A model generated the notes under the pieces. That model made no database searches and had not been told where the DNA came from. It saw only the letters and a program-made list of their open reading frames with translations. From Verrucomicrobia bacterium 12-59-8 (GTDB lineage: Bacteria; Verrucomicrobiota; Verrucomicrobiae; Verrucomicrobiales; Verrucomicrobiaceae), in NCBI GenBank assembly GCA_002279765.1, contig NCCR01000352.1, positions 1 to 9,429 on the forward strand: a stretch of DNA of 9,429 bases. Reading direction: 5' to 3'. Made by a program: the position numbers and the translations under genes. Positions 1 to 9,429 of the stretch are shown in pieces. How positions within the stretch are numbered: position 1 is the stretch's first letter; the number at the start of each line of letters is the position of its first letter.

Positions 1-1319
1 ATGCCGCGAGTCGCGGAGCGCCAACGCTCGCCTTCGGTAACGGTGGCGAGGTTACGCAACTGCGGGAGTTCGGAGGCGTAGAAGCGGAGGACGTTCTCAC
101 TGCCCTGCAATCGCAAGACCTGGCCTTCGGGCTTGAAGCCGAGACCTTCCAAACGGCGCAAAAGGCGGAATTCGGCCTCTATGTTTTGGACGTAGAATAC
201 AAAGTCATTCGATTCATCTTGAAGTGGGAAGATTGAATGACCGCCGTCGGAATGGCGCACGGGCCAGGTGTGCGAATTGTAACGGGCTGAGAGTTTCGCA
301 TCCACGACCTGCAGCGAGCCGTCGAGCTGGATTTCGAACTGGCAGGGCACCGGGGCGACGTGGAATTTCTCCAGGCCTGCGCCGCGCAGTTCCATCTGGA
401 AGCATTCGCCCAGAGATTCCCCCTGCTCTGCCAGCCAACGTAACGGCTTGATAACGTTTGAACGACTCAGCTCTCCCGCAAGGGTGGTGAGGGCGGGGGT
501 GTCGGCCAAGTGGCGGAACAGGGAGGCGGTCTCCTGGCAGATCCACCAAGCACCCATGACGTGCTTTTGGTGAGCGCCTTCGAGTTTGAGGCGGACGGTT
601 TGGGCATCGACGGACTCCACCACCAGCGGCAGGCGGACGCGCTCCGGGGCGACGTGGAGGGGGCGCTCCTGGCCATTCGGCTTGCCGACGAAGACCCTTG
701 GGTGCTCGGCCAGCGATTGAAGGAAGGTGTTCAGGCCTTCGCCTTTGAGGGAGATGGGCAGGCTCTGGGGCTGCTTGATGCCTTGGCTGGCCAGCCAGGC
801 GGCGAACATGGAGGACTCGCCCTCGCCTCCGGGTAAATACTTCACGAAGACGCCGAAGGGCTCGCGGATTTGCCCTTGGAGCAGGGGTTCGGGGAGGTAG
901 AGGGAGTAGCGCCCCGCGATCTGGAGAGCGGTCAGGCAGGGCTTTGTTGTAGTACCGGCTTGAGCCGGTCCGGAACTGCCGGAACCGGCTGAAGCCGGTA
1001 CTACAGAACGTGCTGCAGAGCTAGAAGCGGGTCTGGCACCGCTTTGCTTGCGGACGTGGGCGAGGGCCACGGCGAGGGCGTGCTCGCACATCATGCCGCT
1101 GCGGCGGGCATGGGGGCAGGTGCAGAGGTTCTCCACATCGGATGAGGTGCGGATGCGCAGGCCGGTGGTGAATTTCATTTTGCCTGAGCCCGCAGTGCCA
1201 CGGATCATGCCGTCACTGCTGCTGGTGACGACGGCCAAACCTGCATCCACCAAGGAGCGTGCGGACTTCATCACCGCCCAACCGCCGATTTCTCCGAGCC
1301 ATTTCTCTGTGATTTCCAT
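1..1319 (-). CDS. SWIM zinc-finger SNF2-family helicase, N-terminal part (3' end outside window)
   Basis: The minus-strand frame from the ATG at 1319-1317 is open to the window edge, giving 439 complete codons and no stop. Residues 66-80 form a SWIM zinc finger: C66-x-C68, then C78-x-H80 (CTCPHA...MMCEH). SWIM domains bind DNA or protein and in bacteria often sit at the N-terminus of SNF2-type ATPases. The region after about residue 130 looks like the 'bacterial SNF2 helicase-associated' region (for example GFKPEGQVLRLQGSENVLRF near the visible end), so the SNF2_N and helicase C motor domains should lie to the left of the window; they are not visible here. Residues about 105-125 are a Val/Pro/Ala/Gly/Ser/Thr linker encoded by a REP-like palindrome. 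The ATG was chosen because no in-frame ATG lies closely upstream and the protein-like sequence (MEITEKWLGEIGG) begins there; no strong ribosome site is seen. The gene is divergent from parA. The family call is good; the motor domain is inferred. Confidence 0.8.
   Translation of the reverse strand, partial: MEITEKWLGEIGGWAVMKSARSLVDAGLAVVTSSSDGMIRGTAGSGKMKFTTGLRIRTSSDVENLCTCPHARRSGMMCEHALAVALAHVRKQSGARPASSSAARSVVPASAGSGSSGPAQAGTTTKPCLTALQIAGRYSLYLPEPLLQGQIREPFGVFVKYLPGGEGESSMFAAWLASQGIKQPQSLPISLKGEGLNTFLQSLAEHPRVFVGKPNGQERPLHVAPERVRLPLVVESVDAQTVRLKLEGAHQKHVMGAWWICQETASLFRHLADTPALTTLAGELSRSNVIKPLRWLAEQGESLGECFQMELRGAGLEKFHVAPVPCQFEIQLDGSLQVVDAKLSARYNSHTWPVRHSDGGHSIFPLQDESNDFVFYVQNIEAEFRLLRRLEGLGFKPEGQVLRLQGSENVLRFYASELPQLRNLATVTEGERWRSATRG
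948..1005. repeat. REP/BIME-like palindrome inside the helicase gene
   Basis: Two 22-base arms, 948-969 and 984-1005, are inverted copies of each other with a single mismatch (G962 against the C expected from A992/G991), separated by a 14-base centre. Each arm holds its own small hairpin: ACCGGCT-TG-AGCCGGT on the left and ACCGGCT-GA-AGCCGGT on the right. This two-hairpin layout is that of a REP doublet (BIME), the kind of element moved by RAYT (TnpA-REP) transposases. It lies inside the SNF2-type reading frame just after the SWIM finger and leaves the frame intact. No RAYT gene is in the window. The inverted repeat is seen directly; the REP assignment is inferred from shape. Confidence 0.75.
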
Positions 1320-1364
1320 TTCGTGCTGGCGTGTCCCATGGTTTATCTGCAAAGTCCAGTACCT
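1320..1364. promoter_or_regulatory. Short divergent intergenic region between helicase and parA
   Basis: Only 45 bases separate the two divergent start codons, so promoters for both genes must lie here or run into the opposite gene's 5' end. I see no convincing -35/-10 pair and no Shine-Dalgarno sequence before either start. If parA actually starts at ATG 1338 or GTG 1323, almost no spacer remains. Confidence 0.3.
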
Positions 1365-2162
1365 ATGAGGATTGTCGCCATTTCCAACCAGAAAGGTGGC
1401 GTCGGTAAAACGACGACCGCTTTGAACCTCGCCGCGTGCCTCACCCAGCGCGGCGTGCGGGTGCTGCTGGTGGATCTCGACCCCCAGGCAAACGCCACCA
1501 GCGGCCTCGGCTTGGCCCAGGAAGAGGGCGGCAGCCTGTATTCAGCCCTCGTGGACGGCACCGACCCTCGTCTTGCTATTCGCAGCACGCGGCTGCCGGA
1601 TCTCTCCATCATCCGCTCCCATCAGGAGCTGGCCGGTTGTGAAATCGAGCTGGCCCAGGCTGGCAACCACATGGCCCGCCTGCGTGAGGTGCTAGCCCCG
1701 CTGCGTGACTCCGGCCATTTCGACTACGCCATTCTCGATACCCCGCCCTCCCTCGGCGTGCTCATGACCGGGGCCCTGGCGGCGGCGGACGAACTGCTCG
1801 TTCCCATTCAGTGCGAGTACTTCGGTCTCGAAGGCCTTTCCAAGATCGTCAACGTGGTGCAGCAAATCCGCGACTGCGGGGCCAATCCGAACCTGCTGCT
1901 GGAAGGCATCGTGATGACGATGTACGACAGCCGTGCCAACCTGGCGAACCAGGTGGTGAATGACGTGCGCAATTACTTTGCCGAGACCTGCTACCAGACG
2001 CTGATCCCGCGTACGGTGCGCCTTGGCGAAGCCCCCAGCTTCGGCAAGAGCATCATCGAGTACGAGCCTTCTGGTCGTGGTGCGCAGGCCTATCGGGCGC
2101 TGGCCGATGAATTCCTGGCCCGCCGTGCGGTGCCCCAAGCTCCCGCCGTCGCTGCGGCTTAA
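1365..2162 (+). CDS. parA: ParA/Soj-family ATPase
   Basis: A 265-residue P-loop ATPase of the ParA/Soj/MinD superfamily, the size of chromosomal Soj proteins. ParA binds DNA non-specifically as an ATP dimer and drives segregation or positioning of a partner-bound cargo. The deviant Walker A box KGGVGKTTT is at residues 10-18, with signature Lys10 and P-loop Lys15. The A' motif VDLDPQAN is at 36-43, and Walker B (ILDTPPS) has Asp125. The Soj-type blocks VPIQCEYFGLEGLS and IPRTVRLGEAPSFGKSI follow. I chose ATG 1365 because Soj proteins begin a few residues before the P-loop (MRIVAISNQKGG); GTG 1323 and ATG 1338 are in-frame alternatives that would add 14 or 9 residues. No clear ribosome site precedes any of them. 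The usual parB partner is not adjacent: the next gene, 15 bp downstream on the same strand, encodes a radical SAM protein. It could therefore be the chromosomal Soj with parB elsewhere, or an orphan ParA with another cargo. Confidence 0.93.
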   Translation: MRIVAISNQKGGVGKTTTALNLAACLTQRGVRVLLVDLDPQANATSGLGLAQEEGGSLYSALVDGTDPRLAIRSTRLPDLSIIRSHQELAGCEIELAQAGNHMARLREVLAPLRDSGHFDYAILDTPPSLGVLMTGALAAADELLVPIQCEYFGLEGLSKIVNVVQQIRDCGANPNLLLEGIVMTMYDSRANLANQVVNDVRNYFAETCYQTLIPRTVRLGEAPSFGKSIIEYEPSGRGAQAYRALADEFLARRAVPQAPAVAAA

Positions 2163-2177
2163 CCCAGCCCAGGTGTC

Positions 2178-3233
2178 ATGCAGACTCCCGCACATGGTAT
2201 CCATGGGCGCGGGGCAGCTCTCAATCCGCACCAGCGTTTTGCCGAACTGCATGTGGACTACGATCCCGGTGAAGCGCCGGAAAAAGTCGCCACGAAGTTC
2301 CTGCGCGATCACTCGTCCAGCATCATCTCGCGCAACAGCAGCCCGGATCTGCCTTTTGAGGCCAGCCTGAATCCCTACCGTGGCTGCGAGCACGGCTGCG
2401 CCTACTGCTATGCCCGGCCCACGCACGAGTACCTCGGCTTCTCTGCCGGGGTGGACTTTGAATCCCGCATCATGGTGAAGGAGAACGCCCCTGCCCTGCT
2501 GCGCGCTGAGCTGCTCAAACCTTCCTACAAGCCGGAGAATCTTTCCCTCAGCGGCATCACCGACCCCTATCAGCCCATCGAGAAAAAGCTCCGCATCACG
2601 CGGGGCTGTCTGGAAGTCCTCGCCGAGTGCCGCCATCCGGTGGTGCTCATCACGAAAAACCATCTCATCACGCGGGATGTCGATCTGCTGGCGGAGCTTG
2701 CGCGGCATTCGGCCACTGCGGTCTATATTTCCATCACCACGCTCGATCCCGATCTGGCCCGCAAGCTGGAGCCGCGAGCGTCCTCGCCGAAGATGCGGCT
2801 GGAGGCTATTCGCATCCTGCATGAAGCGGGTGTGCCCGTGGGGGTTTCCACCGCGCCGATCATCCCCGGCCTAAACGATTCCGAAATCCCCGCGCTCATT
2901 GAAGCCGCCCGCGCTGCCGGGGCACAGTTCGCCGGATACACCGTCGTGCGCCTACCCTTTGCCGTGAAGGATGTCTTTCGTGCGTGGCTGGACCAGCACT
3001 TCCCCGGCATGCGGGACAAGATCCTCAGCCGTATCGAAGAGACGCAGGGCAAGACCTTGTCGCATGGCGAATTTGGCAAGCGGCTGAAAGGCGTGGGTGT
3101 GTGGTCGGAGCAGATCGCCGCACTGTTTAAGGTGTCGATCAAGCGAGCAGGCATGCTGCACCGGAGGCCGGAGGTGAGTGCGGAGGCGTTTCGGCGGCCG
3201 CGCGATCCGGGTGGGCAGATGGAGTTGTTTTAG
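2178..3233 (+). CDS. PA0069-family radical SAM protein (spore photoproduct lyase-like)
   Basis: A 351-residue radical SAM enzyme. The [4Fe-4S] cluster motif C70-EHG-C74-AY-C77 (RGCEHGCAYCYAR) has the CxxxCxxC spacing that binds S-adenosylmethionine and the cluster. The downstream block SGITDPYQPIEKKLRITRGCL (about 125-145) and a TIM-barrel-like ISITTLDPDLARKLEPRA (about 185-201) are characteristic of the PA0069/Rv2578c group, which is related to spore photoproduct lyase SplB. Its substrate is unknown; DNA repair is a plausible inference from SplB kinship. The ATG is 15 bp after the parA stop, with AGG 4 bases upstream as a weak ribosome site, so the two genes are probably co-transcribed. The last five residues, QMELF, resemble the bacterial sliding-clamp-binding motif (QL[S/D]LF type). 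Length is normal for the family. Family assignment is confident; function is not. Confidence 0.93.
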   Translation: MQTPAHGIHGRGAALNPHQRFAELHVDYDPGEAPEKVATKFLRDHSSSIISRNSSPDLPFEASLNPYRGCEHGCAYCYARPTHEYLGFSAGVDFESRIMVKENAPALLRAELLKPSYKPENLSLSGITDPYQPIEKKLRITRGCLEVLAECRHPVVLITKNHLITRDVDLLAELARHSATAVYISITTLDPDLARKLEPRASSPKMRLEAIRILHEAGVPVGVSTAPIIPGLNDSEIPALIEAARAAGAQFAGYTVVRLPFAVKDVFRAWLDQHFPGMRDKILSRIEETQGKTLSHGEFGKRLKGVGVWSEQIAALFKVSIKRAGMLHRRPEVSAEAFRRPRDPGGQMELF

Positions 3234-3294
3234 CTATTGGCTCTGGTGATGCCTTCACGCCAGCCTTGCCATTTTTGCTGAAACCGCTTAAAAG

Positions 3295-6162
3295 ATGACA
3301 ATGCCTGACGTCGCCAAGCCAGCCCATGCACCGGCGGACAAAGCCAACGAGGCTTTCTGTGCGCCGAGTTTAAGCAGCGTTGAAGAGCACTACAAGCTGC
3401 TGAGCTGCCTGCTGGATTACATTCCTGACCGCATTTATTTCAAAGACAAAGAGGGGGCGTTTGTGCTGGTGAGCCGGTCCGAGGCCGAGTATCTCGGGGC
3501 GTGTGATCCGGCGGAGGTGATCGGTAAAACGGACTTCGATTACTTCGAGCACGCCCTGGCGCAGGCGGCCATGGAGGATGAGCAGGAGCTGATGCGGCTG
3601 GGCAAATCCATCACGGGCAAGGAGGAGAAAAAGCGGCTGCTGGATGGTCGCACGGGCTGGGCGCTGGTGACGAAGATCCCGCTGCGCGATGCCGACGGCG
3701 GCATCATCGGCACCTGTGGTATCTCCAAAGACATCACAGCACTCAAGGAGACCGAAGAGGCCCTGTACAAGGCCAATGCGGCACTGGCCTCGCAGAAGGC
3801 GCTGCTGGAGCAATCCATGGCAGAACTGCAGCAGACCAAGCTGGAACTGGTGCAACAGCTGGCCATGCGTGAGCGGGTGGAGGACGAACTCGTCCGGGCC
3901 AAGCGTGAGGCCGAGGAGGCCAGCAGCGGTCTGGGTCCCTTCTTTCAGGTGGCGCTGGACATGCTCGGCATTGCCGGGATGGACGGCTACTTCAAACGGA
4001 TCAATCCAGCCTTTTACAACTCACTGGGCTACACGGAGGAAGAGATGCTGAGCCAGCCCTTTCTCGAATTCGTACATCCTGAGGACCGGCCCAAAACCGT
4101 GGAGGCCGTCGAGCAACTGTTCGGCAAAGGATATCGCTTAAAGATACGCAACAACCTTACTCAGCCTGGGTTTTGGGCGGCGGAGGAAGCGGTCGGTATG
4201 GCGCGTGAAGCCGCCGAGGCGGCAAACCAGGCCAAGAGCACCTTCCTCGCGAACATGAGCCACGAGATTCGCACGCCGATGAATGGAGTGCTGGGCATGA
4301 CGGAACTGCTGCTGAACACGCGCATGACGGCCGACCAGCGAGGCTACCTGAACCTCGTGAGGCAGTCGGCCGACTCCTTGATGACGGTGCTCAATGACAT
4401 CCTGGATTTCTCCAAGATCGAAGCGGGCAAGCTGGACCTCGACAAGCATGAGTTTGATCTGCGCGACTCCATCGGGGACACCCTGCAAACGCTGGCGACC
4501 CGCTCCGCAGAGAAGGACATTGAGCTGGCCTACCACGTGAAGCCTGACGTGCCCGACTGCCTGATTGGCGACATTTGCCGCCTGCGGCAGATCATCCTGA
4601 ACCTGGTGGGCAACGCCATCAAGTTCACGCCGCGTGGCGAAATCGTAGTGGAACTGCGCGTGGAGAGCCGGACCGAGACTGAGGTGACCCTGCATGTGCA
4701 GGTGTCGGACACGGGCATCGGCATCGCCAAAGACAAGCAGGCGCATGTGTTTGAATCCTTCACGCAGGCGGAGAGCTGCACCACACGCCGTTTCGGCGGC
4801 ACCGGACTCGGCCTGACCATTTCCAGGCAACTGGTCGATCTCATGCAGGGGCGCATGTGGCTGGAAAGCGAACCGGGCAAGGGCAGCGTCTTTCACTTCA
4901 CCGCGCAGTTTGAACTGGCGAGCCAGAAAGCGCACGCCTCGCGGTTGCTCCCGGAAACGCTGCGCGACTTCCAGGTATTGGTGGTGGACGACAATGCGAC
5001 CAATCGCACAATTCTCGAGGAGATGCTCAAGACCTGGGAGCTGCGGCCCATCCTTGCCGCCAGCGGTGCCGAGGCTTTGCAAATCTTGGAACAGGCCCAG
5101 ACCGAAGGCTCGCCCATTCCGCTGATGCTGCTGGACTACATGATGCCTGTGATGGATGGCGCGGAAGTTTGCCGCCAGATCCAGCAACGTTTCAGCAGCG
5201 ATGCGCCCAAAATTTTGATCCTTTCTTCGGGTGGCAATCTGACCGCCGAAATTGGTGATGAATGCCTGGGATATGAGCGCTGCCTGACGAAACCCGTGAA
5301 GCATTCGGATCTCTTCGACACGATCTGCCGCGTCATGGGAGATCTGAATGCCGATGACAAAACCGGCAGCGCCCACGAAATGCCCGGTCTGCAGAGCATG
5401 GCCCCCATGAAGCTGCTGCTTGCGGAGGATGGCCGGGTGAATCAACTCGTCGCCATCAAGATGCTCGAAGACCGGGGACATCATGTCACCCTGGCCAGCA
5501 ACGGACGTGAGGCTTTGACCCTGCTCGCCAGCCAGACTTTCGATGCGATCCTCATGGACATCCAGATGCCCGAGATGAACGGGTTTGAGGCCACGCTGGC
5601 CATTCGCCTGGAGGAGACCGGCACAGACCGTCACATCCCCATCATCGCCATGACGGCCAATGCGATGAAAGGTGACCGTGAGCAATGCCTAGCCGCCGGG
5701 ATGGATGACTACATCGCCAAACCCATTCACTCGACGCAGCTTTATCCCCTGCTGGAAAAGTATGCCAGCCTCAGCCAGAGGCCCCAAGCTGAGCCCCTGC
5801 CCTTCGGTACTTGCCGTGATGCGCCCGTGTTCGACGCCGACACTTTCAGCGAGAACATTGGCGATGGCCCGCTGATGCTGGAGCTGATACGGCTGTTTTG
5901 TGAAGAGTCGCAGCCCATGCTCGGCAATGCCTGCCTGGCACTCCATGAGCTGGATGCTGAAGCGCTGCACCATGCCTCCCACTCCCTACAGGGACTGGTG
6001 GGCAATTACGCCGCCACACCGGCCTTCAATGCCGTGTCCGCCCTCACGCAATGCACGCGGAATGGCAATCTGCTGCAGGCGGGCAAACTGCTTGCGGTGG
6101 TGACTGACGAAGTAGCGCGACTGCGAGAGGCCCTCGTTGAGTTTGGGCGGGAGATTGAGTGA
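3295..6162 (+). CDS. Hybrid sensor histidine kinase: PAS-PAS-HisKA-HATPase-REC-REC-HPt
   Basis: A 955-residue cytoplasmic kinase with no membrane segment or signal peptide, carrying an entire phosphorelay in one chain. Domains in order: PAS about 36-150 ([11 protein letters not shown] to [10 protein letters not shown]); coiled coil about 150-210; second, apparently shortened PAS about 212-290; HisKA with phospho-acceptor H323 in SHEIRTPMN; HATPase_c with N box ([10 protein letters not shown], 435-444), G1 DTGIGI (472-477) and G2 GGTGLGL (501-507). REC1 has D565/D566, acceptor D614 and K666. REC2 has E711/D712, acceptor D755 and K809. The C-terminal HPt has H896 in SHSLQG. The kinase domain is complete and should be active. 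REC2 reads AEDGRVNQ where EDNxVNQ is usual, and the HPt has Gln in place of the usual Lys of HxLKG. Starts at 3295 or 3301 (MTMP) are equally likely; no strong ribosome site is seen. It lies 61 bp after the radical SAM gene. No separate cognate regulator is nearby, so the output is unknown. Confidence 0.96.
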
Positions 6163-6379
6163 ATGGATTGAAGGCTTGTGTAAGAAGGGGGGGGCGTTTT
6201 TCATCCATGCATCCCACGAGTCGCATGAGGCTAATCACGCAAAAGCGGGCATCCTTGAGGGCTATGCGTATCGCAGCACATTCATTCGACATTCGGATTT
6301 ACTCATTCGTCATTTGCCCCCATCGCTCTACCCTTCTTCCAGACCTGTCTATCAACCACCGACCCGTTCCTCCCACCCC
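6163..6379. other. 217-bp intergenic spacer before rlmI-like gene
   Basis: No convincing coding sequence. The rlmI frame is open upstream through this spacer, but the residues it would encode look nothing like the family. The spacer holds an 8-G homopolymer (6187-6194), an AT-richer middle with a small heptamer array (6283-6317), and a C-rich, G-poor stretch leading into the start codon. I see no clear terminator for the kinase gene and no clear promoter; the promoter for the methyltransferase presumably lies here. Confidence 0.5.
6283..6317. repeat. Five tandem heptamers, CATTCGN type
   Basis: The 35 bases divide into five heptamers: CATTCGA, CATTCGG, ATTTACT, CATTCGT, CATTTGC. Four of the five share CATTYG, giving a 7-14-7 base spacing, and the third is degenerate. 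It lies 62 bases before the methyltransferase start. Short tandem heptamer arrays in spacers are known from several bacterial groups, but I cannot tell whether this one belongs to a genome-wide family or has any role. Confidence 0.5.
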
Positions 6380-7549
6380 ATGCCCACCCTCACCGTCCAG
6401 CCCCGCGCCCGCCTCTTCCACGGCCACCTCTGGGTCTACGCCACTGAAATCCAAAAACGCTTCGGCGATCCCAAGCCCGGCGATGTCGTCCACCTCCAGG
6501 ACGTCCGTGGCAAGCCCCTCGGCAGCGCCATCTACAATCCCCAGTCCCAGATCTCCGCACGCCTCTTCTCCTACCGCCGCCAGGACCTGGATCTGGACTT
6601 CTTCACACGCCGCATCCAGCGGGCGATCAAGGTGCGCGAGGCCTCTGGGGTGGACCTCAATCTCTGCCGCATCGTCTGGAGCGAATCCGACGGACTCCCC
6701 GGCCTCATCATTGATCGCTACGGCGACTTCCTCGTCATCCAGACCCTCACCCTCGCCATGGACCTGCGGAAGGACCTCATCATCCAGGCCCTCAACGACA
6801 CCCTCAAGCCACGCGGCATCGTCCAGCGCAACGAAGGCGCCGTCCGCAAAGCCGAAGGCATGGAGCAGATCAAAGGCGTCATCAGCGGCGAGACACCCGA
6901 GCCCTTCGTCGTCCGCTACCAGGGCAGCGCCTTTCACGCCGACCTCCTCGAAGGCCAGAAAACCGGCCTCTATCTCGATCAGCTAGACAACTACCAGCAC
7001 GTCGCCTCCCTCGCCAAAGGCCGCCGCGTCCTCGACTGCTTCTCCAATCAGGGCGGCTTCGCCCAGGCCTGCGCCCTCGCCGGAGCCAGCGAAGTCACCG
7101 CCGTGGACATCAGCGAGTCCGCCACCGAAGTCGCCAAACAAAACGCCGCCATTGCCGGCGTGCAGATCAACTGCATCGCCGAAAACTGCTTCGACTTCCT
7201 CAAGCGCAACGAAGCCGCCGCCGCCCGCTACGACCTCATCATCCTCGATCCCCCCTCCTTCACCAAAACCAAAAGCTCCGTGCGCGATGCCCTCCGCGGC
7301 TACAAGGAGATCCACCTCCGCGCCATGAAGATGCTAGAGCCCGGCGGCATCTTCGCCACCTTCACCTGCTCCCACCACGTCAGCGCCGAGGAATTCCACA
7401 GCAGCATCACCGACGCCGCCGTGGACGCCAAAAAAACCCTCCGCCGCGTCACCACCTACACCCAACGCCCCGACCACCCCATCCTCGCCACCATCCCCGA
7501 AACCGAGTACCTGCGTGGTTATGCGTATGAGGTGGTCGCTTCGTGGTAG
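6380..7549 (+). CDS. rlmI: RlmI-like class I SAM-dependent 23S rRNA m5C methyltransferase
   Basis: A 389-residue protein matching RlmI (YccW), which methylates C1962 of 23S rRNA to 5-methylcytosine. The N-terminal about 75 residues form a PUA-type RNA-binding domain (RARLFHGHLWVYATEI, then GDVVHLQDVRGKPLGSAIYN). A central EEHUD-like region carries EGQKTGLYLDQ (191-201). The Rossmann methyltransferase domain shows motif I as LDCFSNQGGFA (218-228), AVDIS at 241-245, motif IV DPPSF at 290-294, and the TCS motif at 329-331 followed by AEEFHSSITDAAVDA. The C-terminal RPDHPILATIPETEYLRGYAYEV matches the RlmI tail. I chose ATG 6380 because PUA homology begins there (MPTLTVQPRARLFHGH); the frame is open 81 codons further up, but that part is not family-like. 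Codon use is strongly C-ending, distinct from the AT-rich genes that follow. Substrate position is inferred from E. coli; paralogues such as RlmK/RlmL-type enzymes are less likely. Confidence 0.92.
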   Translation: MPTLTVQPRARLFHGHLWVYATEIQKRFGDPKPGDVVHLQDVRGKPLGSAIYNPQSQISARLFSYRRQDLDLDFFTRRIQRAIKVREASGVDLNLCRIVWSESDGLPGLIIDRYGDFLVIQTLTLAMDLRKDLIIQALNDTLKPRGIVQRNEGAVRKAEGMEQIKGVISGETPEPFVVRYQGSAFHADLLEGQKTGLYLDQLDNYQHVASLAKGRRVLDCFSNQGGFAQACALAGASEVTAVDISESATEVAKQNAAIAGVQINCIAENCFDFLKRNEAAAARYDLIILDPPSFTKTKSSVRDALRGYKEIHLRAMKMLEPGGIFATFTCSHHVSAEEFHSSITDAAVDAKKTLRRVTTYTQRPDHPILATIPETEYLRGYAYEVVASW

Positions 7550-7681
7550 GCTCTTGACCTCCTTATTCCGGGGTTCCATTTGTAAATAAGCGCCATGATC
7601 TCCAACTCAGAATTCGGACATCACCTTATCACCTGTCAGGGCGGAATGTCGCTTTCCGCGAAGCCATAAAGAACCGCACAA
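7550..7681. other. Junction spacer between rlmI-like gene and AT-rich block
   Basis: A 132-bp spacer in which composition changes from GC-rich to AT-richer. One forward frame is open from 7558 to a stop at 7687-7689 and overlaps the SIR2-like start. It has no ATG, GTG or TTG start, and its residues (ending REAIKNRTNE) look protein-like but unrecognisable. It may be the tail of a lost gene or chance. TTGACC at 7554-7559 resembles a -35 box, but I find no -10 at proper spacing. No hairpin terminator for rlmI is evident. Confidence 0.3.
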
Positions 7682-8631
7682 ATGAGTAAGACACTGTGCC
7701 TCATTTTTGGGAATGGATTGACCATTGATCTCCTCTCTCACCTCGAATTAATAAGTCTGGTTGATGTTACAAACCTGTTTCGTTATGGGGCCGACGTGCC
7801 ATGGCCAGCAACAAATGAACCTGGATTTTTGTCATTTAAGCATTGCCCGAATCTCTGGAATCTAGGGGCTAGGCCACACATGGAAACTGTAGAATGTCTT
7901 GCCCTAATCGAAGACATAATCACTTGCGCTAACGCTTAAAGCATCTTTTCGTCCACTACGATTCAATTGTTGCTCCTAAATTGGCAAACGCAAAAACATG
8001 GCCATGGTTCGAATTTTTAAAAAGAGTCAGCTCTAGTGGGCAGTATCAAAAAATTGAAATTATCACTTTTAACTATGATCCTTGGCTTGAACGAATTCTT
8101 ACTCAAGAAGCAATTCCATTTGAAGTCGCGCCCATACAACTAAGCACTTCGACACCTCCAGCAATCATATCAATAATCAAGCCTCACGGCTCGATCTCTT
8201 TTTGTCATACACAAAAACTCGATAAAAAATCTTTTGCCATTAATTACGATAAAAATCTAGTCGATGGCAAGATAACAGATTTTAATATTTCGTATGATGA
8301 ACTTGATGCAAACTATCTTGTTACACCACTAATTCCTCCAGCTGGTGAGGCGCGTAGATTAAATCAAACTTGGGCAGGCGAGATTCAGACACACTGCCAA
8401 AATGTCGCCTCCTCACTGACAGAAACCGACGACATGCTGATCTGCGGCTTGTCTTATTGGCACGTAGATAGAGCAGAGCTCGACACTCTTTTAAACTCTT
8501 GCTCTGCGGCTATTAATATTAAAATGATTAATCCGAAGCCCAGTAGAACGCTCACAGCGGTGATCACCAGCATATTTGATCGTTTCATCTGTTATCCTTC
8601 CTGCACAATCCTTAGCAAACTACTCAAATGA
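7682..8631 (+). pseudogene. SIR2-like (NAD-binding/NADase-type) protein gene broken by a frameshift
   Basis: Two adjacent pieces form one SIR2-like protein. The first (7682-7939, 85 aa) starts MSKTLCLIFGNGLTID, with the Gly-rich GNG loop at residues 10-12 that opens the nucleotide-binding fold. The second, in the -1 frame, is open from 7933 to 8631. It holds ITFNYDPWLERIL (the TxNYD NAD-site motif), IKPHGSISF (the HGS catalytic-His motif) and LICGLSYWHVDRAELDTLL (the late Gly/Asp motif). Motif order and total length (about 316 aa) fit SIR2_2/AbiH-related proteins. Restoring one base after TA at 7937-7938 turns the stop TAA into a Tyr codon and gives a smooth join (ANA-Y-KHLFVHYDS). There is no slippery heptamer for programmed -1 shifting and no ATG for the second piece (only TTG at 7981). 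Many SIR2-like proteins deplete NAD+ in phage defence. The last bases overlap the DUF262 start. It is AT-rich with ATA/TTA codons, suggesting transfer. It is either inactivated or a one-base sequencing error. Confidence 0.72.
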
Positions 8632-9429
8632 AACCCAGACTCAGAAGAGATACGAACACAATCACGATCGCGAGTTTTTGGGAGAATTATCTTCTGAATA
8701 AATACGATTTTGACCCTCCATATCAGAGAATGAGTGTGTGGACAGAAGAAAAGCAGTCATTTTTCATCGACAGTATTCTGCGCAATTTTCCCATCCCCCC
8801 GGTCTTCCTCCAACAAAAGATTGATAATAATTCAGGCAAGACCACTTATGAGCTAATCGATGGCAAACAACGATTGACGGCAATAGTAAAGTTCATACGA
8901 GGAGAGATAGCCTGTAGCTCAGAGTTGGCAGATGAGGGCACTGAAGGAGACGAGATTGCAGGCAAATACTTTGACGATCTCGACACTCCTGAGCTTACAG
9001 AGTATAAAATACATTTTTGGCGCTATTCACTTCCAATCGAATACATTGATACCGACTCGAAGAAATTGATCGACGAAATTTTTGATCGATTAAATCGCAA
9101 TGGAGAACCCCTTACCGGTCAGGAACTTCGCAATGCACAGTATCACAACGCAGCATTCAGCAGACTGGTTGATGAAAAGGCAAAGCTTCCATTCTGGATT
9201 ACCCGACTTGCCACTCTTGACTTGTCACGAATGGAAGATCGCGAATTTATCGCGGAGGCACTGTTTGTATTACTTCAAGGCGGACCTCAACATGCAAATG
9301 CGGCAGAAATAGATTCTCTTTATGAATTTTATTGCGCGAAAAATTCCAACTTCTTTTCAGACAAAGACCTTCAATTTAATGTAATCACAAAATTTTTAGA
9401 TGATCTTAATTTGGATTTTGATGGATTTA
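8628..9429 (+). CDS. DUF262 (GmrS-N/ParB-nuclease-like) protein, 3' end outside window
   Basis: The ATG at 8628 overlaps the preceding TGA in an ATGA junction, and the frame is open for 267 codons to the window edge; it contains no stop, so the gene is partial. Motifs are those of DUF262, the N-terminal module of GmrSD-type restriction proteins: PPYQR at 30-34 with W38, DGKQRL at 78-83 (canonical DGQQRL), and a block FDRLNRNGEPLTGQELRNAQ at 152-171 (FxRLNxxGxPLxxxELRNA). In GmrSD, BrxU and SspE this ParB-like fold binds or hydrolyses NTP and regulates or performs DNA cleavage. Stand-alone DUF262 proteins of about 350-400 aa also exist; whether a DUF1524 HNH nuclease follows here cannot be seen. 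Arg codons AGA/CGA and Ile codon ATA are common, unlike the upstream genes. Four-base overlap implies translational coupling to the SIR2-like gene. Family call is firm; role in defence is inferred. Confidence 0.88.
   Translation, partial: MKPRLRRDTNTITIASFWENYLLNKYDFDPPYQRMSVWTEEKQSFFIDSILRNFPIPPVFLQQKIDNNSGKTTYELIDGKQRLTAIVKFIRGEIACSSELADEGTEGDEIAGKYFDDLDTPELTEYKIHFWRYSLPIEYIDTDSKKLIDEIFDRLNRNGEPLTGQELRNAQYHNAAFSRLVDEKAKLPFWITRLATLDLSRMEDREFIAEALFVLLQGGPQHANAAEIDSLYEFYCAKNSNFFSDKDLQFNVITKFLDDLNLDFDGF

Follow-up and report, generated by a model that had tools for sequence, protein, structure and literature searches.

A conserved SIR2–DUF262 gene pair, often found near C5-cytosine methylases, as a candidate two-gene defence module

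The right-hand end of a 9,429 nt stretch of DNA from Verrucomicrobia bacterium 12-59-8 (contig NCCR01000352.1, positions 1 to 9,429; the whole stretch is termed the window) carries a SIR2-like gene (7682–8631) joined through the sequence ATGA to a DUF262 gene. A first-pass annotation of this DNA proposed that the two genes form a defence cassette, and did not identify the pairing with a named, characterised system. Do these genes belong together, and what might they do for a cell? The arrangement in the window is far beyond chance. Conservation of the pair, the length of the gap between the genes, the agreement of their distances, the comparison of predicted folds and the bias in which gene is broken strongly support a conserved two-gene cassette in which SIR2 is the effector and DUF262 the regulator.

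Conservation and spread of the pair

Homologue searches at E ≤ 1e-3 returned 114 SIR2 and 731 DUF262 proteins. The SIR2 alignment was then scanned against one genome per species for about 85,000 bacterial and archaeal species, which yielded 53 loci representing 52 genes (L053 and L054 are the halves of one gene). A DUF262 gene lies immediately downstream of the SIR2 gene, on the same strand, in 51 of these 52 cases. The exception is L038, where the contig stops 94 bp past SIR2 and a C-terminal piece of DUF262 resides on another contig of the same genome. From the SIR2 stop to the DUF262 start the distance is −17 to +5 bp in all 48 pairs measured (44 genome loci and four viral contigs; L055 and L058 score exactly as L020 and L031), with 13 pairs at −4 bp and nine at −1 bp. 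Scans of viral contigs with SIR2 or with DUF262 found the same four contigs each time. Furthermore, the SIR2 distances parallel the DUF262 distances (Mantel r 0.85, a value reached in none of 999 permutations) for the 41 pairs in which both genes are unbroken and in one piece.

The pair is present in Pseudomonadota, Bacillota, Bacteroidota, Nitrospirota, Cyanobacteria, Calditrichota and Deferribacterota, and a Sulfurovum plasmid adds Campylobacterota to the hosts. In Escherichia coli it occurs in 27 of 5,426 complete genomes, 26 of which cover at least 80% of the two-gene query, and strain ATCC 8739 carries it without annotated damage. A tRNA-Arg gene and a tyrosine integrase gene are located just upstream in all four E. 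coli loci examined. In Klebsiella oxytoca (L025, ~12500–17150), genes beside the pair match TraC strongly and TrbI under the cut-off, pointing to carriage of this copy by a putative conjugative element. Only distant DUF262 relatives were found in phage records (282 records, all below 60% identity; none above 37% among the 20 matches listed).

The close association holds for the SIR2 family and DUF262 subfamily of the window, for which the refuting observation named in advance, rare co-occurrence of the homologues, clearly fails; it does not extend to DUF262 proteins at large. Among 369 genomes of one class, eight had a DUF262 protein at E ≤ 1e-20, and only the 573-bit one adjoins SIR2. The seven weaker proteins (76–211 bits) have no SIR2-profile match within the ~0.5–1.5 kb of flank searched. 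From these flanks, DUF262 at large was rejected as a SIR2 partner. The 50 pair-bearing genomes discussed below contain a further 11 weaker DUF262 matches.

Predicted folds, gene decay and the copy in the window

The structural model of the SIR2 protein has a SIR2 fold, and its best matches are chains of SIR2-HerA entries, which score approximately 3–4 Z units above the first deacylase. The DUF262 model matches BrxU, SspE and ParB. The residues of the NAD site (GNG, the N of NYD and the H of PHG) are kept in all 41 single-piece SIR2 relatives and are also present in the window, split there over two frames. Likewise, the motif DG[KRQ]QR is kept in 41 of 41 DUF262 relatives.

The two genes differ in how often they are broken. 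Fragmented SIR2 genes number eight among the 52 from genomes, and the Sulfurovum plasmid and the window each add one; DUF262 is fragmented only at L048, where both genes are broken. Loci with SIR2 alone broken number nine, versus none with DUF262 alone broken (exact p 0.004); one of the nine is the window, where just 267 DUF262 codons are visible, and all loci were found via SIR2, meaning that a lost SIR2 gene would escape notice and a lost DUF262 gene would not. Because in this set SIR2 alone breaks and DUF262 alone does not, the pattern suggests that SIR2 is the costly, toxic part, the effector, and that DUF262 alone is tolerated.

Breaks lie near profile positions 32, 60, 70, 152, 187, 240, 246 and 270, with an insertion near 240, and at residue 85 in the window. 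A programmed frameshift was considered and rejected, since the break points vary by locus and two of them (L029 and L045) are in-frame stops; decay of SIR2 therefore explains them. On contig CAJTEN010000008.1 (~1849–25270, from L053 1849 to L054 9971), an insert of about 23 kb splits SIR2, and the downstream DUF262 gene is intact.

The sequence features of the pair in the window are collected in Table 1. The ATGA overlap and the motifs GNG, TFNYD, PHGS, DGKQRL and FDRLNRNGEPLTGQELRNA, all named in advance, could be located. The reported SIR2-like coding region held up in its identity, as the second piece exceeds the curated cut-off of SIR2_2 (PF13289; 26.8 versus 24.5 bits) and a SIR2 fold is predicted, but it is not one open frame. 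Its first piece closes at a stop codon met past the break and alone has no match in Pfam, PADLOC or NCBIfam. The second piece is open from 7933, and its first listed start, a TTG at 7981, gives a protein of 216 amino acids that includes the family motif SYWHVDRAE; it terminates in the TGA inside ATGA. The closest relative, P0002 (349 amino acids), is 87% identical across this second piece. The alignment to P0002 picks up again at residue 119 in the other frame, with 33 residues lost, as a single deletion of roughly 100 bp would produce; an assembly error would account for this only by likewise removing about 100 bp. The GNG loop and the NYD and PHG residues fall in different frames, and therefore no working SIR2 protein is expected. 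With its SIR2 gene damaged in this way, the window copy of the pair is probably inactive, judging from the sequence.

Table 1. Features of the SIR2–DUF262 pair in the window
Feature	Position	Strand	Evidence
SIR2-like gene, first piece, 85 amino acids	7682..7939	+	94% identity to P0002 residues 1–85
GNG nucleotide-binding loop of the first piece	7709..7717	+	
Break in SIR2 gene: P0002 residues 86–118 absent, frame change	7931..7941	+	P0002 aligned to window DNA; three-frame translation
SIR2-like gene, second piece, other frame	7936..8631	+	PF13289 E 6.3e-6 (7981–8628); 114 homologues
TFNYD motif of the second piece	8065..8079	+	
PHGS motif of the second piece	8182..8193	+	
ATGA, DUF262 start overlapping SIR2 stop by 4 bp	8628..8631	+	Same −4 geometry in 13/48 measured pairs
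DUF262 gene, 267 of ~345 amino acids, continues past window	8628..9429	+	PF03235 E 1.2e-28; PADLOC NsnA E 1.2e-37
DGKQRL, nucleoside triphosphate (NTP)-binding motif	8859..8876	+	
FDRLNRNGEPLTGQELRNA	9081..9137	+	

The DUF262 frame is open up to the end of the window at 9429, and the 3′ part of the gene and the DNA that follows lie outside. The assignment to DUF262 was borne out clearly, with the GmrSD_N/DUF262 profile (PF03235) scoring 101 bits against a cut-off of 33.2, and the protein also carries the motif PPYQR. Its top PADLOC model, NsnA (a gene of the Menshen system), is covered only over positions 45–259 of 385, and PD-T4-2_A follows with E 7e-22. No DUF1524 (HNH) nuclease domain was found in cis, only PF03235, in the window part and in the best 120 of the 731 homologues, most of which are ~345 amino acids long. 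A crude motif search for HNH or DHxYP found none in the 41 DUF262 relatives, and at some loci an HNH gene is a separate neighbour. The closest relative, P0116, is 91% identical over the window's part of the protein. Among the 41 single-piece pairs the nearest DUF262 is that of L005 (58% over 230 residues), where an N4/N6-type methylase lies directly downstream in place of a C5 methylase; another equally close DUF262 (58%) is among the best 120 of 731.

The SIR2–DUF262 pair differs in composition from the DNA to its left, as had been noticed: its G+C content is 0.41 compared with 0.61 across 1–7549, dropping beyond the stop codon of a methyltransferase gene at 7549. The upstream genes are ordinary by Pfam and NCBIfam and encode a ParA-like ATPase, a radical-SAM protein, a hybrid histidine kinase and the methyltransferase, which is closest to the RlmI family yet under the NCBIfam cut-offs. 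At the other end of the window, an incomplete gene on the − strand (3–1352) has a SWIM zinc finger and an SNF2-associated domain and is probably the N-terminal part of an SNF2-type helicase.

C5-cytosine methylases and restriction genes beside the pair

The first-pass annotation had suggested searching the flanks for known defence genes, and this search was productive. Among up to three proteins on each side of the pair (133 upstream and 124 downstream), C5-cytosine DNA methylases outnumber every other Pfam family, with 14 upstream and 9 downstream; the next families reach 5 and 3. PADLOC applied to the same neighbours agrees on this excess. Methylases were also counted across 50 whole genomes, with those of L047 and L053/L054 left out. 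C5 methylase (PF00145) matches number 106, of which 27, in 24 genomes, are at most 9 kb from the DUF262 gene of the pair, versus approximately 0.5 expected under an even spread. Leaving out L038, where the DUF262 piece and SIR2 are on different contigs, lowers the count to 23 genomes. In contrast, only 1 of 58 PF01555 matches and 1 of 92 PF02384 matches in the same genomes are near the pair (Fisher 9e-10). N6/N4 methyltransferases are thus almost never beside it. All of these are profile matches and some genes count twice, and the 9 kb limit drops one PF00145 match (G400) and one PF01555 match (G397), both about 10 kb away. A neighbour scan of 6 kb that excluded L053/L054 gave a C5 methylase at 23 of 51 genome loci; the difference from 24 of 50 arises from L038, whose DUF262 piece adjoins a methylase on another contig. 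No report of this C5 methylase link was found in the literature searched.

Of the 24 C5 loci, 18 also have a protein recognizable as a candidate type II nuclease. These are NgoMIV-family nucleases at six loci (L017, L028, where the nuclease is fused to the methylase, L032, L041, L042 and L043), Cfr10I/Bse634I-family nucleases at five (L008, L010, L011, L033 and L034), a BsaWI-family nuclease at L020, an NgoFVII-family nuclease at L021, an EcoO109I-family nuclease at L027 and, recognized by the HNH domain alone, four proteins (L006, L044, L050 and L052). The sites of the named nucleases are rich in C and G (GCCGGC, RCCGGY, WCCGGW, RGGNCCY and GCSGC). The idea that SIR2–DUF262 replaces the missing nuclease of an orphan methylase was rejected, given that these same 18 of 24 loci also hold a candidate nuclease. 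An obligatory role for host 5-methylcytosine (5mC) was rejected as well, as 9 of the 50 genomes have no PF00145 match anywhere, though some of these are drafts.

The methylase may be upstream of the pair, downstream of it or inverted; at L044 the methylase gene begins about 30 bp past DUF262. Mapped onto a DUF262 tree (41 rows), the C5-neighbour trait requires 8 changes, at least 5 of them forced by well-supported branches. From these changes and the varied placement it follows that the C5 methylase neighbour has been gained or lost repeatedly.

Several individual loci have unusual methylase arrangements. At L021 (7367–9664), one frame of 766 amino acids contains two C5 methylase matches and lies by the pair and an NgoFVII-type nuclease. 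At L028 (7712–9547), the fusion of C5 methylase and NgoMIV-type nuclease has 612 amino acids and is followed by a Vsr gene and then by the pair. The run upstream of the pair at L035 (1477–7605), an unusual restriction operon, is composed of genes for a C5 methylase, a large HATPase/zinc-ribbon protein that is presumably MORC-like, an Mrr/ResIII helicase-nuclease and a protein of unknown type. A HATPase gene adjoins the methylase of L019 too.

Proposed function and comparison with known systems

We consider it probable that the pair is a two-gene, NAD-depleting abortive module gated by DUF262 and often layered on a cytosine-methylating restriction system. A role in phage defence is likely, as indicated indirectly by the restriction-type neighbours and mobile islands. 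SIR2 would be a single-domain NAD+-consuming effector that is kept inactive in healthy cells. DUF262 would be an NTP-binding regulator of ParB/Srx fold, produced from the same transcript by coupled translation, which either holds SIR2 off or assembles with it. On detecting infection, most probably through phage DNA that is altered or protected, DUF262 would switch SIR2 on; NAD+ would fall, and the phage burst would be blocked by cell suicide or growth arrest. We infer this NADase activity, gating, trigger and abortive outcome from the features described above. Where a C5 methylase is near, as it is in roughly half of the genomes, the module could form a second layer against phages that evade restriction. 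The window copy should be inactive, since the deletion would have knocked out its SIR2 gene.

If DUF262 reads cytosine modification, it must tolerate the plain 5mC of the host at the sites of the neighbouring methylase, and so could not respond to 5mC in general. By sensing heavier modification, it would cover the cases in which cytosine modification blocks the nucleases. A bolder proposal, which we regard as possible yet doubtful, makes the pair a third component dedicated to C5-cytosine type II restriction–modification (RM) systems. DUF262 would read the state of incoming cytosines at C/G-rich sites, ignore the host 5-methyl pattern and fire the SIR2 NADase when phage DNA resists the neighbouring nuclease because its cytosines are protected, for instance by hydroxymethylation or glucosylation. 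The pair would also be one example of a DUF262 sensor chassis whose effector is swapped between lineages: SIR2 here, a RelA/SpoT domain at the locus L066, OLD in Menshen, HEPN in PD-T4-2 and DUF1524 in GmrSD.

A number of observations count against the layered abortive module. A SIR2 fold fits deacylases too (CobB 13.4, SIRT5 ~13), and NAD+ hydrolysis is therefore not proven by the fold. The match of DUF262 to BrxU has a root mean square deviation of 12 Å across two domains, and the predicted TM-score (pTM) of the DUF262 model is 0.58. In E. coli PI12 (L060 8055–9747), an IS1 has eliminated DUF262 and truncated SIR2 at its end, and most of SIR2 remains; counted in, this locus makes the decay asymmetry 9 to 1 (p ~0.02). 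Several broken SIR2 copies are from draft metagenome assemblies, and the DUF262 gene of the window is seen only in part. Regarding the restriction link, the pair lacks a nearby C5 methylase in 26 of the 50 genomes, and in 9 none was found anywhere, and the link is therefore optional; no annotated restriction genes are beside the pair in the E. coli islands or the Sulfurovum plasmid. Restriction genes also generally cluster in defence islands, a concern that the comparison of methylase classes answers only partly. Finally, one gene can account for more than one methylase match, and the rows share ancestry, with the trait clustering on the tree.

Other explanations must be weighed against the same data. 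That the genes lie together by chance in defence islands and share no function is refuted by the constant order, strand and spacing and by the agreement of the distances. The tight coupling, the SIR2-biased decay and the integrase islands of E. coli would also be expected of a toxin–antitoxin system, in which a constitutive SIR2 toxin is held directly by a DUF262 antitoxin to stabilize mobile islands and restriction systems, defence being secondary. However, the SIR2 gene comes first and DUF262 second, whereas classical antitoxin genes usually precede toxin genes. Moreover, PI12 keeps most of SIR2 after the loss of DUF262, which a toxin would permit only if the clipped protein were inactive or non-toxic, and the NTP-binding motif kept in all 41 relatives is beyond the needs of a plain antitoxin. 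We therefore judge this account unlikely.

Alternatively, DUF262 could guard the adjoining C5 RM system, comparable to the hold of PrrI on PrrC, and free SIR2 when that system is inhibited. The frequency and strong class specificity of the nearby methylases favour such a role, and the coupling of RM to suicide genes is an established hypothesis (PMC3506569). Guarding cannot be the general job of the pair given the 26 of 50 genomes without an adjacent C5 methylase and the nine without any, and adjacent nucleases of several Pfam families would demand repeated re-adaptation of a protein–protein guard, which renders the explanation quite improbable. Very unlikely is a pair of non-abortive enzymes, with SIR2 modifying proteins or DNA by ADP-ribosylation or deacylation and DUF262 as a nucleotide-dependent targeting factor, without NAD+ collapse. 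Sirtuin deacylases do score as high as ThsA and DSR2 against the SIR2 model, but the top matches are SIR2-HerA chains, well above the first deacylase, and the decay of SIR2 genes implies a cost.

The gated SIR2 module proposed here defines an unnamed, widespread two-gene defence candidate that joins two well-known modules, and it yields a testable claim, namely a role for DUF262 without a nuclease. Its tie to C5 methylases suggests a layered defence against cytosine-protecting phages and constrains the sensor to tolerate host 5mC. We found no paper that pairs SIR2 with DUF262, or PF13289 with PF03235, in a search that left supplements and most subscription papers outside. The sole paper found that contains DUF262, SIR2 and phage is a review (PMC10952713), in which the domains occur in separate systems.

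DUF262 proteins are known from systems with other effectors. GmrSD, BrxU and SspE have DUF262 with a D-G-x-Q-R-type motif in common with the proteins described here, and the DUF262 model resembles BrxU and SspE in fold. In contrast to them, we found no DUF1524 nuclease domain here, and a separate SIR2 protein is in the effector place. DUF262-bearing enzymes of the GmrSD type act on modified DNA (PMC12409352 and PMC10952713), and BrxU cleaves DNA with glucosylated, methylated or hydroxymethylated cytosine, 5mC included (PMC12409352). Menshen (NsnA) and PD-T4-2, the top two PADLOC matches, also are DUF262 proteins without DUF1524, and differ in that the partner here is SIR2; PMC10952713 gives OLD as the Menshen effector and HEPN as that of PD-T4-2. 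NsnB was unmatched by the SIR2 proteins P0002, P0028 and P0106 or by the window pieces, and NsnB and the OLD-family NsnC are absent among the 25 commonest of 150 and of 96 neighbour families listed. At L066 (506–2532, G261), a sister DUF262 (211 bits) overlaps through ATGA with a downstream RelA_SpoT gene (PF04607, E 6e-10), a candidate defence pair of DUF262 and an alarmone-synthetase-like protein. This one locus, together with Menshen and PD-T4-2, fits the view of DUF262 as a sensor family that changes its effector.

On the SIR2 side, the partner in SIR2-HerA (Nezha) is a HerA ATPase, compared with the adjacent downstream DUF262 of ParB/Srx fold here, and the Nezha SIR2 is almost unrelated in sequence to the window family (only E 0.008 by profile). 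DSR2 and ThsA are far longer chains (~970 and ~475 residues) than the SIR2 protein of ~345 amino acids with its separate DUF262, and the domain plans of DSR2, ThsA and Kom SIR2 differ from SIR2–DUF262. The carriage of a suicide gene with an RM system is an idea shared with PrrC–PrrI and with systems in PMC3506569 and PMC9519451. The former names Sir2 and ParB in type I and III RM operons and proposes the coupling of RM to suicide, and the latter terms PD-lambda-5 an RM+Abi system. The RM–suicide systems named in PMC3506569 are of types I and III, whereas the SIR2–DUF262 pair is found with C5-cytosine methylases, mostly together with type II nucleases of the NgoMIV, Cfr10I/Bse634I, BsaWI, EcoO109I, NgoFVII or HNH families.
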